A DNA stretch of 34,898 nt, taken from an uncultured Methanomicrobiales archaeon (GTDB taxonomy: Archaea; Halobacteriota; Methanomicrobia; Methanomicrobiales; Methanospirillaceae). Numbering within the stretch: position 1 is the stretch's first letter; each line of letters starts with the position of its first letter. Below, one piece after another: positions 15,667-34,631 of the stretch. Made by a program: the position numbers and the translations under genes. The stretch is taken from positions 1 through 34,898 of the forward strand of contig CAIJED010000098.1 of NCBI GenBank assembly GCA_903819595.1, in the 5' to 3' direction. The notes under the pieces were generated by a model, which was not told the origin of the DNA, did no database searches, and was given only the letters and a program-made list of their open reading frames with translations.

Positions 15667-16299
15667 TCAGATCGGAGCTGGGTCTTCTGCCTGCTTTGCA
15701 GGGCAAAAATTACAGATTGAATAAAATACTTCTTTTTCCTTGTCACGGATAAGGCAGTAATAGTCCACGCCCCTCGCTTCAACTTTGAACCCTCCGGGAA
15801 ACGGCATCCCGACAGGGTGACCGGGCTTATCCAGGACGAACATCGTAAACGCGGAGATCAGGTAATAAAACAGACGCATTTTAGGGTTGCGAAGATAAAC
15901 GTTCCGGTCAGACTGGTCATCCCATGAAAAACAGCCATCAGGGATGATCTCACAGAACTCGCGGAAGGTCACGGGGTCACGGATGGGTCCGGATAACGGG
16001 CGGGACACCTTTGAGCGGTGCATCAGGAGCAGGGCATGGTGCATACCAAAGAGCTGTTCGGTAAAGTAGGGGCTGATCGCCCCCCGGTAAGGGGAGGGAA
16101 GTTTTCTGATCTCATTTTGTAACCGTCCCCCGATCAATTGCAGATCAAAATTAGAATAGTACCCGATTTCTTCGGCAAGTATATCCAGAAGATCCACTTT
16201 GGTTGTCGCAGAACTGATCCGGAGTGCAGTTGTGCGGATCAATGTAGTTTCTGTTGGAAACTGTTCCATCAGTTGTGATACCCGGGCGTCTGGATTCAT
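15667..16299 (-). CDS. DUF2115 (UPF0305) family protein
   Basis: A 210-residue soluble protein of a family found almost only in methanogens. Supporting stretches are the YYSNFDLQLIGGRLQNEIRKLPSPYRG region (about 47-73) and the C-terminal VDYYCLIRDKEKEV...SICNFCPAKQ, where two cysteines (NFCPAKQ and the preceding SIC) could bind a metal. Function unknown. It is transcribed alone, flanked by about 300 nt upstream of the MFS gene and 210 nt after the trp operon. Confidence 0.88.
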   Translation of the reverse strand: MNPDARVSQLMEQFPTETTLIRTTALRISSATTKVDLLDILAEEIGYYSNFDLQLIGGRLQNEIRKLPSPYRGAISPYFTEQLFGMHHALLLMHRSKVSRPLSGPIRDPVTFREFCEIIPDGCFSWDDQSDRNVYLRNPKMRLFYYLISAFTMFVLDKPGHPVGMPFPGGFKVEARGVDYYCLIRDKEKEVFYSICNFCPAKQAEDPAPI

Positions 16300-16500: not shown

Positions 16501-16521
16501 GGGGGAGCATTATGCTCCACC
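16501..16521 (-). terminator. Strong hairpin at the trpA stop codon
   Basis: GGAGCAT at 16504-16510 and ATGCTCC at 16512-16518 form a perfect 7-bp stem around a single central base, extended by GG/CC pairs after one mismatch. The trpA stop codon lies in the centre. It could stabilise or end the trp transcript; there is no T-tract after it. Confidence 0.4.
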
Positions 16522-17319
16522 CCGGCCGTCGTCTGTGGCGACCCGCATCGAAACAGCATAATTTTTGAGGCTTTCCTTCATACATTCAGGGTCATCCCTG
16601 TGCTTCTCAATAATCGCAACAATTGCACTTCCTGCGATGGCTGCATCGGCTCCAACCCGGTATAGATCAATTGCATGGGCCGGGGTAGCTACACCGAAAC
16701 CAACCGCCAGTGGCATGCTCGTTTTTTTGCGTATATCACGGACGATTGCGGTGGCCCCGGCAGGCAGGGTGGGTAAGACCCCGGTAACACCCATGTGCGA
16801 GACCAGGTAGAGAAATCCTTTCGCATTTTCAAATATCCGGTTCAGCCGCTCCGGCGAAGTCGTCTCACAGACCATAAATACCTGGTCAATACCAGTCTTT
16901 CCTGCCACCTTCATCACGGGACCGGACTCCTCAACCGGCATATCGGCAATCAGTATCCCATCGACACCGGCGGCATCAGCCTCACGGTAGAACCGGGAGA
17001 TCCCGCGGTGGAGCACGATGTTGTAATACGTCAGGAGTACGACCGGCACCTGGGAATACTGCCTGATACGGCGGACAATTTCAAATACCATCTCCGGGGT
17101 CGCACCTCCGCAAAGAGCACGGAGATCCGCCCGCTGTATCGTGGGTCCGTCCGCAACGGGATCTGAGAACGGGACGCCTAACTCGATAATATCCGCACCA
17201 CCTTCAATGAGGGCACAGGCTGCCGCAACACAACGTTCGAAATCCGGGTCTCCCGCAACGATGAACGCGATGAACAACGGCCTTCCGGCAGACGAAAAGG
17301 CCTCCTGTATCCGGGTCAC
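16510..17319 (-). CDS. trpA: Tryptophan synthase alpha subunit
   Basis: A 269-residue TIM barrel that cleaves indole-3-glycerol phosphate to indole and glyceraldehyde 3-phosphate, passing indole to TrpB. The catalytic residues are Glu46 in [11 protein letters not shown] and Asp57 in VADGPT. The phosphate-binding end of the barrel includes [12 protein letters not shown]. Length is normal. It is the last gene of the trp operon, overlapping trpB by 4 nt. Confidence 0.98.
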
Positions 17320-18494
17320 GGGACACCACCCTGTAACGACGCCACCCCGGCAACATCCTTATCGCCCCTCCCTGACAGGTTGATGACAACGATATCATCC
17401 CGGGAGAGATCATCCTTCATCTGTATGGCCGCAGCCACCGCATGGGCCGACTCCATGGCCGGGATGATCCCTTCCCGCCGCGGGAGATAGCGGAACGCTG
17501 AAAGGGCATCGCTATCATTCACAGCGATATAGTTCACCCTCCCGGCATCTTTGAGCATGCTGTGTTCAGGGCCGACACCCGGGTAATCGAGACCGGCAGA
17601 TATACTGTGAGTCTCCCTGACCTGCCCGTTTTCATCCTGTAATAGGTAGGAAAATGCCCCGTGGAGTACGCCGGGGCTGCCCCCGCAGAGTGTAGCCCCA
17701 TGTTCACCGCTCATGAGACCATGACCCCCGGCTTCCGCACCGGTCATTGCCACAGGGTCCCTGATAAACGGGTGAAACAACCCGATCGCATTTGACCCGC
17801 CCCCAACGCAGGCGATGAGATGGTCCGGGAGCCGCCCTTCCGCCTTCATCGACTGCTTTCTCACTTCACGACCGATAACCGTCTGGAAATCCCGGACCAT
17901 CAGGGGGAACGGGTGAGGGCCGACAACGGACCCGATCAGGTAGTGCGTATCGCATGCGTTCCCTACCCAGTCACGAAGGGCTTCGTTCACCGCGTCTTTT
18001 AAGGTCCTTGACCCGGTACTGACCGGGATGACCTTTGCACCCATCAATTCCATCCGGAAGACGTTCAACATCTGGCGTGCGATGTCATCCGTCCCCATGT
18101 AGACCTCGACAGGAAGGTTCAGCATTGCCCCTGCAATGGCCGTTGCCACACCGTGCTGACCAGCCCCGGTCTCGGCAATCAGCCGCTTTTTACCCATGTA
18201 TTTTGCCAGCAATGCCTGCCCCAGGGTATTATTCAGTTTGTGAGCCCCACCATGGAGGAGGTCCTCCCGCTTAAGATAGATCCTTGCCCCAAGGTCTTTG
18301 GACATATTCGGGCAATAGGTGAGGGGTGTCGGCCGGCCGGCATAATTTTTCAGGTAGTGGTTGAGTTCCCGGACAAATTCCCTGTCCCGTGAAATTTTGC
18401 GGTATGACACTTCGAGTTCAATAAGCGCAGCCATCAGTGCTTCAGGGACGTATTGCCCTCCGAACTGGCCAAACCTGCCAGATTTTACCACCAT
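17316..18494 (-). CDS. trpB: Tryptophan synthase beta subunit
   Basis: A 392-residue PLP enzyme that joins indole and serine to make tryptophan. The PLP lysine is Lys86 in GGAHKLNNT; the catalytic Glu lies in [12 protein letters not shown]; the phosphate-binding loop is GGGSNAIG. The N-terminal [15 protein letters not shown] is that of the TrpB1 type, which works in the alpha2-beta2 complex, consistent with the adjacent trpA. The ATG follows the trpF stop directly (TGA-ATG). Confidence 0.98.
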
Positions 18495-19073
18495 TCAGCA
18501 CCCCTTCGCAGCCTGGATAAAGGCGTTAACGAGTTTATCGTCTTTTATTCCCGGGGACTTCTCAACCCCTGATGCAACATCCACCGCATAGGGCCGGATT
18601 CTTTCGATTGCATCCCTCACATTACCGGGGTTGAGACCTCCTGCAAGTATCACGGGGATCTCCGACCGCCCGACCACATCGCGGGCATAGGTGGGATCAT
18701 ACAACCGGCCTTTTCCATGGCTGTCATCAATAATCACCGCGTCACAGTCAGCCGGGATGGATTCCCCCCTCCCAATCACCCGGATCAAATGGGTTTTTAC
18801 GCCATGGGGAAACGAGAATGGATGAGATATCTGGATTGCAGAGGGGTGCAACTCCAGCATCTTTGCCATCTCATACTCAGACGTGGTGTGACTCACCGCC
18901 ACGGTCGCAGTGAACGGACCAAGGGCATCAAAGATCTCACGTGCCCGTTCCGGAGTCACCACCCGCGTTGACATTCCGCCTGAAAACACCACGACCCCGA
19001 TGGCATCTGCACCGGCAGCCTCTGCCTGGAGCGCATCCCGTACAGTAGTTATGCCACATATTTTTACGCGAAT
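18495..19073 (-). CDS. trpF: Phosphoribosylanthranilate isomerase, probable ATT start
   Basis: A 192-residue TIM barrel that isomerises N-(5-phosphoribosyl)anthranilate. The protein opens with xRVKICGITT, holding the catalytic Cys, and ends with the DVASGVE phosphate site whose Asp/Glu region completes the active site. No ATG, GTG or TTG is available near the conserved N-terminus. The only normal start in frame is an ATG at 19145, which would add 24 unconserved residues and overlap trpC by about 80 nt. Instead GGAGG at 19081-19085 sits 7 nt before an ATT codon at 19071-19073, exactly where homologues have their first Met. I therefore annotate an ATT start, overlapping trpC by 10 nt. Confidence 0.88.
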   Translation of the reverse strand: MRVKICGITTVRDALQAEAAGADAIGVVVFSGGMSTRVVTPERAREIFDALGPFTATVAVSHTTSEYEMAKMLELHPSAIQISHPFSFPHGVKTHLIRVIGRGESIPADCDAVIIDDSHGKGRLYDPTYARDVVGRSEIPVILAGGLNPGNVRDAIERIRPYAVDVASGVEKSPGIKDDKLVNAFIQAAKGC

Positions 19074-19825
19074 ACGAACCCCTCCAGTGCTTTTTTCGGG
19101 CTGGCTGATGCCATGATCGAGCTTCCGATAAGGAAGGCATCGCAATACCGCCCGAGGTACCGTACATCAAACGGCCAGTTTATACCACTCATCGAGATGA
19201 TTGTAAGACCTTTCCTGCCCATTTTTTCAGATATCAGTTTCGTCGTGGTAAGATTAGTTTCCATGGTTCTGAGGTTCCGGTTGTTAATTCCGATCAGGGT
19301 GGCCCCGGATCTGACGGCTATTTGAATCTCGTTACAGTAATGGACCTCTACCAGTGGTTCGATGCCCCACATCATACAGAACCTGACAAATTCCGGCAGG
19401 CGGTCCCCAAGTACCCCTGCAATCAGGAGTACGGCATCTGCACCAAGCATCCTCGTCTCCACGATCTGCCGTTTGTCGATGATAAAGTCCTTCCGCAGCA
19501 GTGGAATGGCAGAAACCTTCCGGATACGTGAAATATTCTTTGTGCTGCCTTTGAACCAGAAAGGTTCGGTGAGGACCGACAGTGCGACAGCACCTCCTTC
19601 TGTCATCAGGCGTGCCAGTTCCTCCGGCTCACCGCTACTCCTGATACAGCCCGCCGATGGGGATGAATACTTAATTTCTGCAATAACTGCATTCCGGTCT
19701 TCAGCGGTATGTATTGCCTGCTGCAGTCGCCCGGGTACTTCGGGACCGGCTGACCGGATACCGGAGATCTCCGGTAGCATTGCTACTCTTTCCACGGTCC
19801 GTTCTACTATTTCATCAAGTATCAT
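19064..19825 (-). CDS. trpC: Indole-3-glycerol phosphate synthase
   Basis: A 253-residue TIM-barrel enzyme converting CdRP to indole-3-glycerol phosphate. Catalytic landmarks are VIAEIKYSSPSAG (Glu, Lys, Ser-Pro), IPLLRKDFIID (Lys), IEPLVEVHY (Glu) and LIGINNRNL (Asn-Arg-Asn). Length is typical for the monofunctional form. The start overlaps the trpD stop by 4 nt. Confidence 0.97.
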   Translation of the reverse strand: MILDEIVERTVERVAMLPEISGIRSAGPEVPGRLQQAIHTAEDRNAVIAEIKYSSPSAGCIRSSGEPEELARLMTEGGAVALSVLTEPFWFKGSTKNISRIRKVSAIPLLRKDFIIDKRQIVETRMLGADAVLLIAGVLGDRLPEFVRFCMMWGIEPLVEVHYCNEIQIAVRSGATLIGINNRNLRTMETNLTTTKLISEKMGRKGLTIISMSGINWPFDVRYLGRYCDAFLIGSSIMASASPKKALEGFVFA

Positions 19826-20853
19826 GCCGCACTCCCGGTCGCATCGATGAGAGCATGGAGCTTTTCCATCGCCCTTCCGCTGTCAATGGATAGTATCGCC
19901 TCAGTGATGCCTTCCTGTATCGAGGCGGTCCTTCCTGCTGTATAAATTGCCGCACCGCTGTTGAGGAGGACAATCTCCCGGTGAGATCCTTTTTCACCCG
20001 ACAGGACATCGGTAAGGATCCTTGCATTTTCTTTTGCGTCTCCCCCTTCGATATCTCCGGATTTCGCCTCCTCAAACCCGTAATCGCTGCACCGGATTAT
20101 CCGGTCGGTAATCTGGTTACCGGATAGTTCGGTCACCTGGGTCTCTCCGGTCGTGGTGATCTCATCAAGTCCTGCACCATGGACGACCATGGCGCGTGCA
20201 GTGCCGAGCTGCCTGAGGACTTCTGCAAAAACCCGGGTAAGTGCAGGGTGATATACCCCGATCAACTGTGCGTCTGCCCCGGCCGGGTTTGTCAGAGGAC
20301 CGAGAAGGTTAAAGATGGTCCTGATCCCGATCTCGCGTCGTGTGACCGCAACCCTTTGCATTGCAGGATGATACAGCGGGGCATACAGGAAGACAATGCC
20401 GATATCCCTGATCATCTGGTTGTTCCGGAATGGTGGAACAGACAGGTTTACCCCAAGTGTTTCAAGTACATCGGCCGAGCCGCAACGGCTCGAGACACTC
20501 CGGTTCCCATGTTTCACTACGGGTACTCCTGCACCGGCTGCGACAAACGCAGCGGTAGTACTAATATTGAAACTAGCCTTCCCGTCACCTCCGGTTCCGC
20601 AGGTATCAAGGAGATGACCGGGATAACCACGGCATACTGGTACCGCCAGGCCCCTCATTACCTGGGCAAATGCCGTAATTTCACCGACAGATGGCCCTTT
20701 AACCTGCATTGCAGTCAGGAATGCACCAATTTGCGCACCTGTTGCCTCCCCTGCTACGATCTCCTTCATGACCGTCCCCGTCATGTGCGGGCTGAGATCC
20801 TGTCCAACTAACACCGTGTTGATCGCCTGCCTGATCACCAGGTCCTGGTTCAT
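19822..20853 (-). CDS. trpD: Anthranilate phosphoribosyltransferase
   Basis: A 343-residue enzyme that transfers phosphoribosyl from PRPP to anthranilate. The glycine-rich PRPP site DTCGTGGDGKASFNIST and the following VVKHGNRSVSSRCGSADVLE are intact, as is the anthranilate-site stretch RTIFNLLGPLTNPAGA. It lies third in the operon, overlapping trpG and trpC by 4 nt each. The order E-G-D-C-F-B-A differs from the E-G-C-F-B-A-D order of Methanothermobacter. Confidence 0.97.
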   Translation of the reverse strand: MNQDLVIRQAINTVLVGQDLSPHMTGTVMKEIVAGEATGAQIGAFLTAMQVKGPSVGEITAFAQVMRGLAVPVCRGYPGHLLDTCGTGGDGKASFNISTTAAFVAAGAGVPVVKHGNRSVSSRCGSADVLETLGVNLSVPPFRNNQMIRDIGIVFLYAPLYHPAMQRVAVTRREIGIRTIFNLLGPLTNPAGADAQLIGVYHPALTRVFAEVLRQLGTARAMVVHGAGLDEITTTGETQVTELSGNQITDRIIRCSDYGFEEAKSGDIEGGDAKENARILTDVLSGEKGSHREIVLLNSGAAIYTAGRTASIQEGITEAILSIDSGRAMEKLHALIDATGSAA

Positions 20854-21431
20854 GCTTTCACCCCGTCGCCATAAAGGAAATTACGGATGATAGCCATTCC
20901 GTTCTGGCAGAGAATGCTTTCAGGGTGGAACTGGACCCCCTCAACCGGGTAATCCCGGTGGCGAACACCCATCACATATCCATCATCGAGACTTCGTGCC
21001 GTGACTGTTAGGGACCCGGGCAATGATTCCGGATCAACAACCAGGGAATGGTACCTTGTAGCCACAAACGGGTTTTCGATGCCCTTGAAAATTCCCTTTC
21101 CATCATGGTTAATCAGAGATGTTTTCCCGTGCATCAGGTGGTAGCCCTGCACAACCGAAGCCCCGGCCTGATGACAGATTGCCTGGTGGCCCAGGCAGAC
21201 ACCCAGTGTGGGAACAGACCTGGATATCGTCTTTAGTGCCTGGAGACACAGCCCCGACCCTTTCGGGTGACCGGGTCCGGGGGACAGGATCACCCGGTCG
21301 GGCGAAATTTTCTCGAGAGTTTCAGGCCTCGCATCAGATTTTACAACCACCGGGTCTGCCCCAAGCGCCCCAATCAGCTGGACGAGGTTATACGTAAAAC
21401 TGTCATAGCAGTCAATGACCAGTACGTTCAT
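20850..21431 (-). CDS. trpG: Anthranilate synthase component II (glutamine amidotransferase)
   Basis: A 193-residue class I amidotransferase that supplies ammonia to TrpE. The triad is complete: Cys79 in GVCLGHQA, His169 and Glu171 in VQFHPESI. The oxyanion strand LSPGPGHP (49-56) is present. A dual role with PabB is possible but nothing here suggests it. It overlaps trpE by 4 nt. Confidence 0.97.
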   Translation of the reverse strand: MNVLVIDCYDSFTYNLVQLIGALGADPVVVKSDARPETLEKISPDRVILSPGPGHPKGSGLCLQALKTISRSVPTLGVCLGHQAICHQAGASVVQGYHLMHGKTSLINHDGKGIFKGIENPFVATRYHSLVVDPESLPGSLTVTARSLDDGYVMGVRHRDYPVEGVQFHPESILCQNGMAIIRNFLYGDGVKA

Positions 21432-23116
21432 GCCAGTCCACCTGCCAGGCGGATGGCCAACCGCATCGCCTCTGCTTTGTCATTTGTCTCTATCCATTCT
21501 TTCGACGGACATGAGTCGGCCACAATACCTGCACCTGCCTGGACAGAGGCAATTCCATCCTTTACATCCGCGGTCCTGATAGCGATCGCAAATTCCAGCT
21601 GATTATCAAACCCGATGTAGCCAACAGCACCGGCATACAGCCCCCTGGGTCCGGGTTCAAGCTCATCAATGATCTGCATGGCCCTGACCTTCGGGGCTCC
21701 CGTTACGGTCCCGGCTGGAAAACATGCCAAAAACCCGTCAAAGCGATCCGCATCATCCCTGAGCGTTCCGGTAACCGTTGAAACGATATGCTGGACATGG
21801 GAATATTTACCGATTTCCATGAACCGGGGTACCCTGACTGAGCCATAGGTGCAGACGCTCCCTGCATCATTCCTTGCGAGGTCAACCAGCATGACATGCT
21901 CGGCACGTTCTTTCTCATCGCGGAGGAGCTCGATGGCCAGTTCCGCATCTTCTTCCGGGGTGCACCCTCTTTTACGCGTACCGGCAATCGGAACGGTGGT
22001 TAAATTTTTTCCTTCTACGCGGACAAGCATCTCCGGACTGGCACCGACAACTGCATGACCGGGAAAATCAAGAAAATACATGTAAGGGCTGGGATTTACT
22101 TCCCTGAGAGCACGGTACAGGGCAATGGGTTCCTCCGTAAATGGGAATTCTTCTTTCCTTGAAATGACGGCCTGAACGATCTCTCCTTCCCGGATATATT
22201 TTTTTACAACTTTCACAGAACGGATAAATTCATTCCTTCCCTGTCCAGGAACCGGTATTCTCCCATGTTGGGCGTGGGGCGTGGTTCCTTCAGGGTGAGG
22301 TCTGGAATGTACCGTATGTTCATGATCACCGGGATGCGTTGTCCTGGAGGTTTTGTAACCAGTCTGGTCACCTGCCCGTTGAGTTGCGCCGTTCGCTACA
22401 ATTCCGTTCGCGACAGCAGGCGGGGCCGCCAGGTATCGCCGGACAAATTCAAGCCGTTTTCGCAGGGCGGAACAATGGCGCTCATATTCCCTGCCAGGTT
22501 CAATTCCTTCAGTAATCACGGCATTACTGATGAGAGACAGGGTACTGTTCCTGTGGTCAAAGACAATGCATTCCGTGCACAGCATGAACTCGGCGAGAGG
22601 AGATTCGGTGCATGGCGGGTACCTGCTTGTCCCGGTTCCCGGAATGGTTAAAAACACCAGGTCATAGGAAAAATACCCTGCAAAGCCTCCCGAAAAACGA
22701 ATGCACGGGGGTGGCAGGTACGTAAAGATTCCGGATATCTGCTTCATTATTTCGATGGCATTCGCCCCGGAAACATCTTTTACCAGGCTGACAAGGTGAG
22801 GGTCACCCGTAATACTGGTGGTACCACCGATTGAGATCCGGAGTACCGGTAAAATTCCAAGGAATGAATATGACTCTGCCTGTATACCCCGGTCCATCGA
22901 TTCAAAAAGAAATCCCCGGCCAGATGTAGTACCCTGACGACCAGTTGCTTCAGACTCATCAGTGAGTCCTTTATAGAGGTCAACGGGCGATATCCCTGTT
23001 TGGGGAATGGTGATACACAGCGGAATAATGGCAGGTTTTAATGATTCGTCTGCCAGCCTGCAAAAATCAGCCTTTGTCAGGCTGATGCCATCATCTGTTC
23101 CGCCGGATATCACCAT
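21428..23116 (-). CDS. trpE: Anthranilate synthase component I
   Basis: A 562-residue enzyme that turns chorismate into anthranilate with TrpG. Conserved chorismate-domain motifs are PIAGTRKRG (377-385), HVMLVDLARND (407-417), PAGTVTGAPK (467-476) and AGAGIVADSCPSKE (527-540). The Trp feedback site is represented by FLFES near 69-73. The protein is longer than usual because residues about 230-295 form a low-complexity linker rich in His, Gly, Pro and Thr between the N-terminal domain and the catalytic core; its sequence looks unconserved. It is the first gene of the trp operon. The ATG at 23116 overlaps the end of an upstream small ORF. Confidence 0.97.
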   Translation of the reverse strand: MVISGGTDDGISLTKADFCRLADESLKPAIIPLCITIPQTGISPVDLYKGLTDESEATGRQGTTSGRGFLFESMDRGIQAESYSFLGILPVLRISIGGTTSITGDPHLVSLVKDVSGANAIEIMKQISGIFTYLPPPCIRFSGGFAGYFSYDLVFLTIPGTGTSRYPPCTESPLAEFMLCTECIVFDHRNSTLSLISNAVITEGIEPGREYERHCSALRKRLEFVRRYLAAPPAVANGIVANGATQRAGDQTGYKTSRTTHPGDHEHTVHSRPHPEGTTPHAQHGRIPVPGQGRNEFIRSVKVVKKYIREGEIVQAVISRKEEFPFTEEPIALYRALREVNPSPYMYFLDFPGHAVVGASPEMLVRVEGKNLTTVPIAGTRKRGCTPEEDAELAIELLRDEKERAEHVMLVDLARNDAGSVCTYGSVRVPRFMEIGKYSHVQHIVSTVTGTLRDDADRFDGFLACFPAGTVTGAPKVRAMQIIDELEPGPRGLYAGAVGYIGFDNQLEFAIAIRTADVKDGIASVQAGAGIVADSCPSKEWIETNDKAEAMRLAIRLAGGLA

Positions 23117-23205
23117 TCCACCGGCATCACCTCTACGTGGCAGTACCCCGGATTTTTCGGGATCCGCACGGTTCGTATCTCCTGTTGTGAGGGGAGGTTA
23201 TTCAT
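23110..23205 (-). CDS. Possible trp leader peptide ORF ending in Trp
   Basis: A 31-codon frame between the trp promoter and trpE. It begins at an ATG at 23205 and ends EVMPVEW followed by TGA, so the only Trp codon is the last sense codon. The TGG-TGA overlaps the trpE start out of frame (ATGGTGA). This is the geometry of translational coupling and could sense charged tRNA-Trp. No homologue is known to me, the initiation site has no good Shine-Dalgarno, and a 31-codon frame can arise by chance. Confidence 0.3.
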   Translation of the reverse strand: MNNLPSQQEIRTVRIPKNPGYCHVEVMPVEW

Positions 23206-23252
23206 GTATGTTCTATTGAATTTGCATTAATAAATACATTACTGTAATTTTT

Positions 23253-23287
23253 TGTACATTGTTGTCTTATATTTTCCTTATTGTACA
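23253..23287 (-). promoter_or_regulatory. trp operon promoter with TATA box between two TRP-box hexamers
   Basis: On the operon strand TGTACA (23287-23282) is followed by AAAATATAAG (23275-23266), a good TATA box, and a second TGTACA (23258-23253). The hexamers start 29 bp apart and would cover the TFB and start-site sides of the TATA box. In Methanothermobacter the repressor TrpY binds TGTACA boxes overlapping the trp promoter in the presence of tryptophan; a similar mechanism is inferred here. The transcript would start near 23245, giving a leader of about 130 nt. Confidence 0.65.
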
Positions 23288-23694
23288 CCAGGATTATGAC
23301 CCCACTATAATGTTTATTTTAGAAATACAAGGATATTTGAGCCTGAATGATGACGTGGGCGGACCCAATACATTTGCTTTGCTTGTGTTGTCTCAGCGCC
23401 CGGAACGAATATTGTCACCCGGGGACGCAGGAGCCGATAAGGGGTACAATCATCCCGGTGGCTGCGGTATTCGATCGACTAAAACCTCCGGTATTTATCC
23501 TTGTGTAAACCAACAAATAAGGATTTTAACGGTGTATTCATTAGAATCCGTAGGAAATCCTAATTAAATAGAGATATGCCGATCCATGGGGGATCCTTTC
23601 ATCCGATTGTCCCTAACGGGTCAGCAACAGGATTGTTTTTTGTCCATTCCGTAACATAATTGTACAAGAATTTTCCCTGGGGGATCCAAAAAGT
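23288..23694. other. Intergenic region between trp operon and methyltransferase
   Basis: About 400 nt lie between the trp promoter and the divergent methyltransferase gene. It contains an imperfect inverted repeat near 23542-23567 (ATTAG...CTAAT), a repeated TGGGGGATCC word at about 23587 and 23680, and a TGTACA at 23661. Frames across it do not look coding. Confidence 0.4.
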
Positions 23695-23717
23695 ATGCCA
23701 GATAAACGTTATGTACA
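23661..23717 (+). promoter_or_regulatory. Two further TGTACA hexamers at the methyltransferase start
   Basis: TGTACA occurs at 23661-23666, 29 nt before the ATG, and at 23712-23717, inside codons 6-8. With the two at the trp promoter they form the only cluster of this hexamer that I noticed by eye in the window. Control of this gene by the trp repressor is inferred. Confidence 0.3.
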
Positions 23718-34554: not shown

Positions 34555-34631
34555 GGGGACGTAGCTCAGTTGGCTAGAGCGCCTGAATGGCATTCAGGAG
34601 GTCGAGGGTTCAACTCCCTTCGTCTCCACCA
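34555..34631 (+). tRNA. tRNA-Ala(GGC) with encoded CCA
   Basis: A full cloverleaf of 77 nt. The acceptor GGGGACG pairs with CGTCTCC and includes the G3-U70 wobble pair that identifies alanine tRNAs. The anticodon stem CCTGA/TCAGG encloses the loop ATGGCAT, anticodon GGC. The T loop is GTTCAAC. The discriminator A is followed by a genomically encoded CCA, usual in bacteria. Confidence 0.97.

Follow-up and report, generated by a model that had tools for sequence, protein, structure and literature searches.

The trp operon and its surroundings

The window analyzed here is a whole contig of 34,898 nucleotides from an uncultured Methanomicrobiales archaeon (CAIJED010000098.1, assembly GCA_903819595.1), and it carries a trp operon on the minus strand. 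The gene order trpE-G-D-C-F-B-A of the original prediction agrees with the ORFs and with the TrpE family matches. The trpE gene lies at 21428-23116 (562 amino acids as an ATG-initiated ORF), and the rest of the operon occupies 16510-21431, where trpG (20850-21431), trpD (19822-20853), trpC (19064-19825), trpF (about 18495-19145), trpB (17316-18494), and trpA (16510-17319) are placed from ORFs and translations; all names except TrpE were assigned by reading the translations. The trpE product matches Chorismate_bind (6.2e-92) and Anth_synt_I_N (1.9e-18) and scores 458.7 bits against the TrpE-arch model, which is under the model cut-off of 512. In the window's genus, TrpE has a long low-complexity linker (residues about 215-290) between the N-terminal and chorismate-binding domains, and relatives in the family align just on either side of it. 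The operon is bordered by genes for a methyltransferase and a flavodoxin-like protein upstream and by a gene for a DUF2115 protein (PF09888, 2.2e-52; 15667-16299, same strand) downstream of trpA. A tRNA-Ala (GGC) gene is located at 34555-34631, near the window end. The most unusual feature of the region, which is missing from the original prediction, is a leader ORF of 31 codons, MNNLPSQQEIRTVRIPKNPGYCHVEVMPVEW, at 23110-23205 on the minus strand, which ends with V-M-P-V-E-W-stop.

The trp promoter

Two TGTACA hexamers are found on the operon strand upstream of trpE, a proximal, TRP-box-like one at 23253-23258 and a distal one at 23282-23287, on either side of AAAATATAAG as had been described. 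The hexamer had also been called rare elsewhere in the window, which is not borne out by the five copies present, since dinucleotide shuffles give 5.13 (sd 2.34) and 55 of 100 shuffles reach five. The closely spaced pair, in turn, is unusual in the genome: TGTACA-N5..40-TGTACA occurs at two places in 3.15 Mb, this one included, and the reversed control at one. Two more copies (23661-23666 and 23712-23717) are found around position 23695, where the divergent methyltransferase gene starts.

The sequence AAAATATAAG, previously taken as a TATA box flanked by the hexamers, is not conserved, whereas GTATTTATT at 23229-23237 (minus strand) is aligned in all four genomes of the genus. This TATA element takes the forms GTATTTATT and GTATATATT in the genus, with the leader ATG 31-33 nt downstream. 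Both hexamers are therefore upstream of the TATA element, the proximal one 20 bp upstream of its TGTA. Alignment of the promoters of relatives sustains the proximal hexamer, which is found at -142 to -144 from the trpE start in 4/4 genus genomes, but not the distal one, whose position shifts and has no counterpart in the other three. The upstream regions of the four genomes have ACAATGTACAATAA-n-ATACCA-n-AATGTATTTATTA in common, with variations, and the usual form in the wider family is AATGTATAAATATGTACAA, in which the TATA box stands between TGTATA and TGTACA 10 bp apart. A TGTACA no more than 260 nt upstream of where TrpE homology begins is present in 23 of 30 family loci, whereas 200 shuffles gave 2.3 on average and 10 at most. 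The offset of TGTACA from the TATA motif, scored for nearest pairs in the 20 loci with matches to both, is -21 (four loci, all of the window's genus), 9 (13), 19 (one), or 29 (two), and all 20 offsets share one helical phase.

A TrpY-family regulator and trpB2

The genome search for a TrpY homologue found a TrpY-family regulator on another contig (G000:C208:15325-15822; NCBIfam NF053754, 207.8 bits, cut-off 180), and no trpY adjoins the operon, as had been stated. Such a protein is encoded in 56 of 61 family genomes and in all 43 near-complete ones. A divergent trpY-trpE arrangement with shared boxes was not encountered, the neighbor of trpE being the methyltransferase gene, and boxes at the trpY genes themselves, as for autoregulation, were not seen either, with TGTACA upstream in just 1 of 30. 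A composite motif, AATGTATAWATATGTACAA, was searched genome-wide in the 61 family genomes with up to two mismatches; it was matched in 49 of them and its reversed control in three. The single match in the window's genome (G000), with zero mismatches, is at trpB2 (NF009057, 737.8 bits), and the motif is present at trpB2 in 4/4 genus genomes. All eight composite-motif loci read in two genera (g1 and g9) are trpB2 promoters, neither of the two read in g2 is, and variants of the motif occur upstream of trpB2 in Methanoculleus.

TrpY-like control is plausible and appears to be the best reading of the boxes, given the conservation of the proximal box, the TrpY-family gene in the genome, and the copy of the motif at trpB2. 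The original proposal of such control would have been refuted by the lack of both a TrpY homologue and conserved hexamers in relatives, and neither is lacking; the flanked TATA box of that proposal, however, is not supported. Alternatively, the hexamers could be a part of the TATA/BRE region and no TrpY operators at all, a possibility that would fit the presence of TrpY in genomes with no detected trpE (e.g., G008 and G022) and the scarcity of TGTACA at trpY genes. It is made unlikely by the fixed distances of -21, 9, 19, or 29 bp in 20/20 loci and by the recurrence of the composite at trpB2 in g1 and g9. Read as TrpY operators, the boxes would extend the TrpY/TRP-box regulon (trpE and trpB2) to Methanomicrobiales.

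A conserved leader that runs into trpE

The last codons of the leader, GAA TGG TGA, overlap the trpE ATG. Its Trp codon TGG (23113-23115) overlaps this ATG (23116-23114) in the -1 frame, and the GAA codon before it (23116-23118) is the proposed -1 slip codon, which would re-pair on GGA. Both belong to a conserved block, GGTGATGCCGGTGGAATGG (23113-23131, minus strand), which encodes V-M-P-V-E-W order-wide and includes an internal Shine-Dalgarno-like GGTGAT (GAGGTGAT here; 23126-23131) whose spacing is kept across loci. Related loci have V-M-P-[V/L]-[E/D]-W at the matching place. In the genus, the N-terminal part of the leader is equal in length in 4/4 genomes, and a stop directly follows W in three of the four.

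The block in the form GTGATGCC-NNTG-GA[A/C]-TGG is found in 122 of 232 Methanomicrobiales genomes and, judged from these genomes, is a marker of trpE. The 18-mer GTGATGCCNBTGGANTGG gave 123 matches in those 122 genomes, covering 24 of 40 genera (reversed control, 0), and all 123 have GA[A/C] at the codon before TGG. Methanoculleus, Methanospirillum, Methanogenium, Methanofollis, Methanolinea, and Methanoregula are among the bearers. Outside the order, the motif occurs in 2 of 309 genomes from other orders of the phylum, compared to 49 of 83 inside; about one match is expected by chance according to our estimate, and one of the two, L311, has no TrpE nearby. Among 30 motif-negative genomes of the order, the TrpE search found no TrpE in 22 (e.g., G110, G113, G121, G127, G129, and G134 of group g27), which suggests that tryptophan synthesis has been lost repeatedly in Methanomicrobiales. 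The eight with a TrpE match comprise two without a leader, three with a leader, and three (f3 g24) in which the matches end short of the N-terminus. Of 35 loci found through TrpE and readable upstream, 23 have a leader with GA[A/C]TGG, one (L025) has a degenerate leader whose codon 4 is AAT, and the other 11 lack a leader.

For the comparisons below, 110 loci were used, consisting of 107 of the 123 pattern matches and three TrpE-found loci without GTG before ATG. In one of them, L264 (G162:C22), the leader motif follows the end of a trpB2-like gene with no TrpE, and a second contig (L265) has a copy with trpE. The conserved block has sharp bounds, from -4 to +14, and fills the shift window, which runs from the last stop in the trpE frame to the stop of the leader.

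Evidence for translation of the leader

Own-promoter loci with a TATA match number 67, and the first ATG at least 30 nt after TATA could be scored in 58 of them. This ATG is in frame with the Trp codon in 54/58, and the frame is open to the motif in 51/58, with a mostly open leader in 14 of 17 genera. The 30-nt threshold was set after the distances were known, and the TATA-to-ATG distances cluster at 34; other thresholds from 22 nt leave the frame open in 41/64 to 50/58. The lengths from ATG to motif differ by whole codons. Where a gene directly precedes trpE, its stop overlaps the leader ATG as TGATG in 40 of 40 such loci, and the gene running into the leader in the Methanoculleus loci checked is trpB2. 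Substitutions in the N-terminal part of the leader show no codon-position bias, and therefore just its frame is kept there. Translation of the putative leader is supported by the open frame, the whole-codon lengths, and the TGATG overlaps, as are the Trp-codon overlap and the base constraint described below, and the mRNA of the leader ORF is probably leaderless.

The codon at the start of trpE

The trpE-frame codon at the overlap is ATG in 54 and CTG in 56 of the 110 loci, and never GTG or TTG; this count includes L264, with no TrpE downstream, and L281, which is an incomplete locus. Upstream of the overlap, 48 of the 56 CTG loci lack ATG, GTG, and TTG in the trpE frame, and among the 56, 31 have no start in the next 20 codons either and 16 have none in 80. 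In a TrpE tree of 107 loci, from which L264 and two short rows were left out, the first base of MTG changed between A and C at least 12 times. In contrast to this pattern, an analysis of start-codon evolution reports, for 61,358 AUG codons, 363 changes to GUG, 113 to UUG, and 2 to CUG (PMC5622118). The same base closes the GA[A/C] codon of the leader, and the chance of never seeing GAG or GAT under Glu/Asp coding alone is about 10^-11, as estimated from the codon use of each locus with one event per genus and base, pooling within genera and treating genera as independent. None of the 39 all-GAN Asp/Glu columns of Methanoculleus TrpE is restricted to A and C with both present. The codon counts and the codon-use estimate therefore indicate that this position is unlike the first base of an ordinary start codon and also unlike an ordinary third codon position. 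Together, the comparison shows an MTG that looks unlike an ordinary start codon and the absence of a normal trpE start in many species.

These data bear on the main rival to a frameshift, which is direct initiation of trpE at (A/C)TG through GGTGAT or through coupling to the leader, with the leader merely coupling or tuning expression. The codon is ATG in nearly half of the loci, a Shine-Dalgarno-like element is upstream in 109/110, TrpE homology extends back to or near the (A/C)TG codon, and the leader stop adjoins the start in most of the genus genomes. However, the prevalence of CTG with no GTG or TTG reverses the usual preference among start codons, and the Shine-Dalgarno-like element is 4-7 nt further off than in most control ORFs. 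Some leader stops are up to about 27 codons downstream, which is too far for simple reinitiation, and ribosomes held up at the Trp codon would obstruct trpE exactly when it is needed. Moreover, all 11 leaderless loci found through TrpE have an in-frame ATG. Taken together, direct initiation is rather improbable, if still the strongest of the competing explanations.

The constraint on the block could also reflect an RNA operator, in which translation is repressed by a Trp-responsive protein or RNA that attaches to GGUGAUGCC..UGGAMUGG across the start of trpE, with the Trp codon being incidental. This would account for the sharp bounds of the block and for a constraint in excess of coding need, namely the G at the third base of codon 3 and A/C only at codon 4. 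It leaves unexplained why the leader is in frame and open into the block and why TGATG overlaps are universal in the loci having a preceding gene, and comparison with Rfam gave no match at E up to 1; we consider it very unlikely. Slightly less credence still is given to arrest of the ribosome by nascent M-P-[VL]-[ED]-W at high free tryptophan, covering the trpE start in the manner of TnaC or erm leaders. The peptide is nearly invariant, and control by a stall at that site would have the right sign, but this requires trpE initiation at CTG in half of the loci and does not explain GAC and GAA without GAT and GAG.

A frameshift model for TrpE synthesis

The favored reading, to which we give an even chance, is that synthesis of TrpE depends on a -1 frameshift at the Trp codon, which scarcity of Trp-tRNA would enhance. 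The overlap of the leader Trp codon with the beginning of trpE points to a possible sensing of tryptophan shortage during translation. The trp operon would then be controlled at two levels, transcription and translation. The TGTACA/TGTAYA boxes, in 10-bp phase with the TATA element, would constitute a TrpY-type operator that is also present at trpB2, and when tryptophan is plentiful, a TrpY-family protein would probably occupy it and hinder TBP or RNA polymerase. The mRNA would start at or near the leader ORF, which runs in frame into V-M-P-[V/L]-[E/D]-W, so placed that the one Trp codon conserved in it lies across the first codon of trpE, in the -1 frame. With plentiful Trp-tRNA, TGG would be read and the ribosome would stop shortly after, resulting in poor trpE translation. 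With scarce Trp-tRNA, the ribosome would pause at TGG while tRNA-Glu or tRNA-Asp occupies GA[A/C] in the P site and the internal Shine-Dalgarno is paired upstream. From there it could move one base backward (GAM to GGA) and go on translating in the frame of trpE. We infer the slip, its Trp dependence, the sensing of Trp-tRNA, and the binding of TrpY.

Several observations are in line with the frameshift model. A TrpE match was found in 108 of the 110 loci, in all 108 in the -1 frame relative to the leader, and in the shortest cases the shift window comprises 15-18 nt upstream in addition to the Trp codon. The Shine-Dalgarno-like element is aligned 19 from the trpE MTG in 108/110 loci (one locus has GGAGG, not GGTGAT), whereas the 62 of 199 control ORFs with a match cluster at 12-15, with two at 19, and the other 137 have no match. 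Longer spacing is typical of -1 frameshifting, with a Shine-Dalgarno 9-14 nt upstream according to a frameshifting review (PMC5009743), though the distance here is 7 to 11 nt depending on how the element is delimited. The third base of codon 3 is G in 24/24 leader-bearing loci found through TrpE, even as TCG (L322) and GGG (L025), and is likewise counted in favor since re-pairing on GGA requires this G. A strong hairpin after TGG (mean z -1.8 or lower) is present in 8 of 26 genera (g3, g8, g9, g11, g13, g14, g16, and g17), and it is absent from the window's genus (mean z +1.07), from g12, and from most genera of other families; a universal 3′ hairpin is thus rejected in favor of one in some genera only. 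In g9, g16, and g11 (e.g., L029, L026, and L307), hairpins of the form GCCGYC...GRCGGC start some 7 nt downstream of the leader Trp codon and show apparently compensating changes.

Other observations count against the frameshift model. The classical X_XXY_YYZ slippery heptamer is lacking, the site being NTG-GAM-TGG, and GGA would be a poor site for the re-pairing of tRNA-Asp. Counted as far as GAM, the distance is 7 nt for GGTGAT, 9 for GGTG, and 10-11 for the AGGAGG-equivalent, so that the first two are at or below the low end of the 9-14 range. The review cited above also regards a slow A site as less important in -1 shifts than in +1 shifts (PMC5009743). The spacer ATGCC is invariant beyond the need of a spacer, the A/C-only rule at codon 4 is not accounted for by slippage, and an ATG is after all present at the overlap in 54 of the 110 loci, 18 of which have a further in-frame ATG upstream. 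The lack of codon-position bias in the N-terminal part of the leader likewise speaks against the model.

Variants of the shift were also considered. A shift in the other direction is ruled out by trpE always being in the -1 frame, and a slip of tRNA-Trp itself by the reasoning that tRNA-Trp cannot re-pair on MTG. As for other leader devices, a T-box or known trp leader RNA was rejected since no Rfam match was obtained at E up to 1 in 22900-23700, and so was terminator-based attenuation, for which the overlap of leader and trpE leaves no room (leader fold z -1.46).

Comparison with known systems

At the level of genome comparison, we show a conserved leader, its frame, a Trp codon on the trpE start, and phased TGTACA at trpE and trpB2. 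In M. thermautotrophicus, trpB2 is reportedly a TrpY target, as a paper titled 'TrpY Regulation of trpB2 transcription in Methanothermobacter thermautotrophicus' has it. The present genomes are similar in having TGTACA at the trp operon and trpB2 and in encoding a TrpY-family protein. They differ from M. thermautotrophicus in that trpY does not adjoin trpE and is without upstream TGTACA in 29/30 loci, the gene order is EGDCFBA, the box is in phase with the TATA element, and a leader ORF follows. The published trpY is autoregulated, whereas the trpY upstream regions here are mostly without TGTACA. As described in one account, the Methanothermobacter trp operon is under TrpY, and the T. kodakarensis TrpY homologue has no role in regulating trp (PMC6737238).

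At the translational level, an archaeal trp leader of this kind was not found in the open-access literature. Bacteria are the textbook case of amino-acid operons controlled through leader peptides, and in bacterial trpL attenuation, a short translated leader with Trp codons lies upstream of trpE. The archaeal leader shares with trpL a Trp codon within what appears to be a translated leader, open and in frame in most scored loci. It differs in that it has one conserved Trp codon, not a tandem, placed on the trpE start itself, and in that it is archaeal, has no room for a terminator, and has frameshifting, not transcription termination, as its proposed output.

If correct, the model would imply that TrpE N-termini have been missed in many genomes by gene calling limited to ATG, GTG, and TTG starts. 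More broadly, a hungry-codon frameshift from a single leader Trp codon into anthranilate synthase could serve as a tryptophan sensor in Methanomicrobiales, productive, induced by starvation, order-wide, and with none found outside the order, a proposal that we rate somewhat short of even. A 2016 review, where it discusses hungry codons, knows of no example in which such frameshifting makes a protein for starvation (PMC5009743). If the model holds, the trp leader would be such an example, in archaea that include cultivated methanogens.

Programmed frameshifting in bacterial RF2 (+1) and E. coli dnaX (-1) has overlapping ORFs and an internal Shine-Dalgarno in common with the site described here. 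The slow A-site codon is RF2-like, and the 3′ hairpin of some genera is shared with regulatory programmed frameshifting. Unlike RF2 and dnaX, the archaeal site has no classical slippery heptamer, its sensor would be Trp-tRNA, and the leader precedes the enzyme. E. coli pheL also has frameshifting in the leader of an aromatic amino-acid gene, as is proposed here, and the review judges it incidental to attenuation (PMC5009743). In contrast to pheL, the shifted frame in Methanomicrobiales would be that of the biosynthetic enzyme itself.
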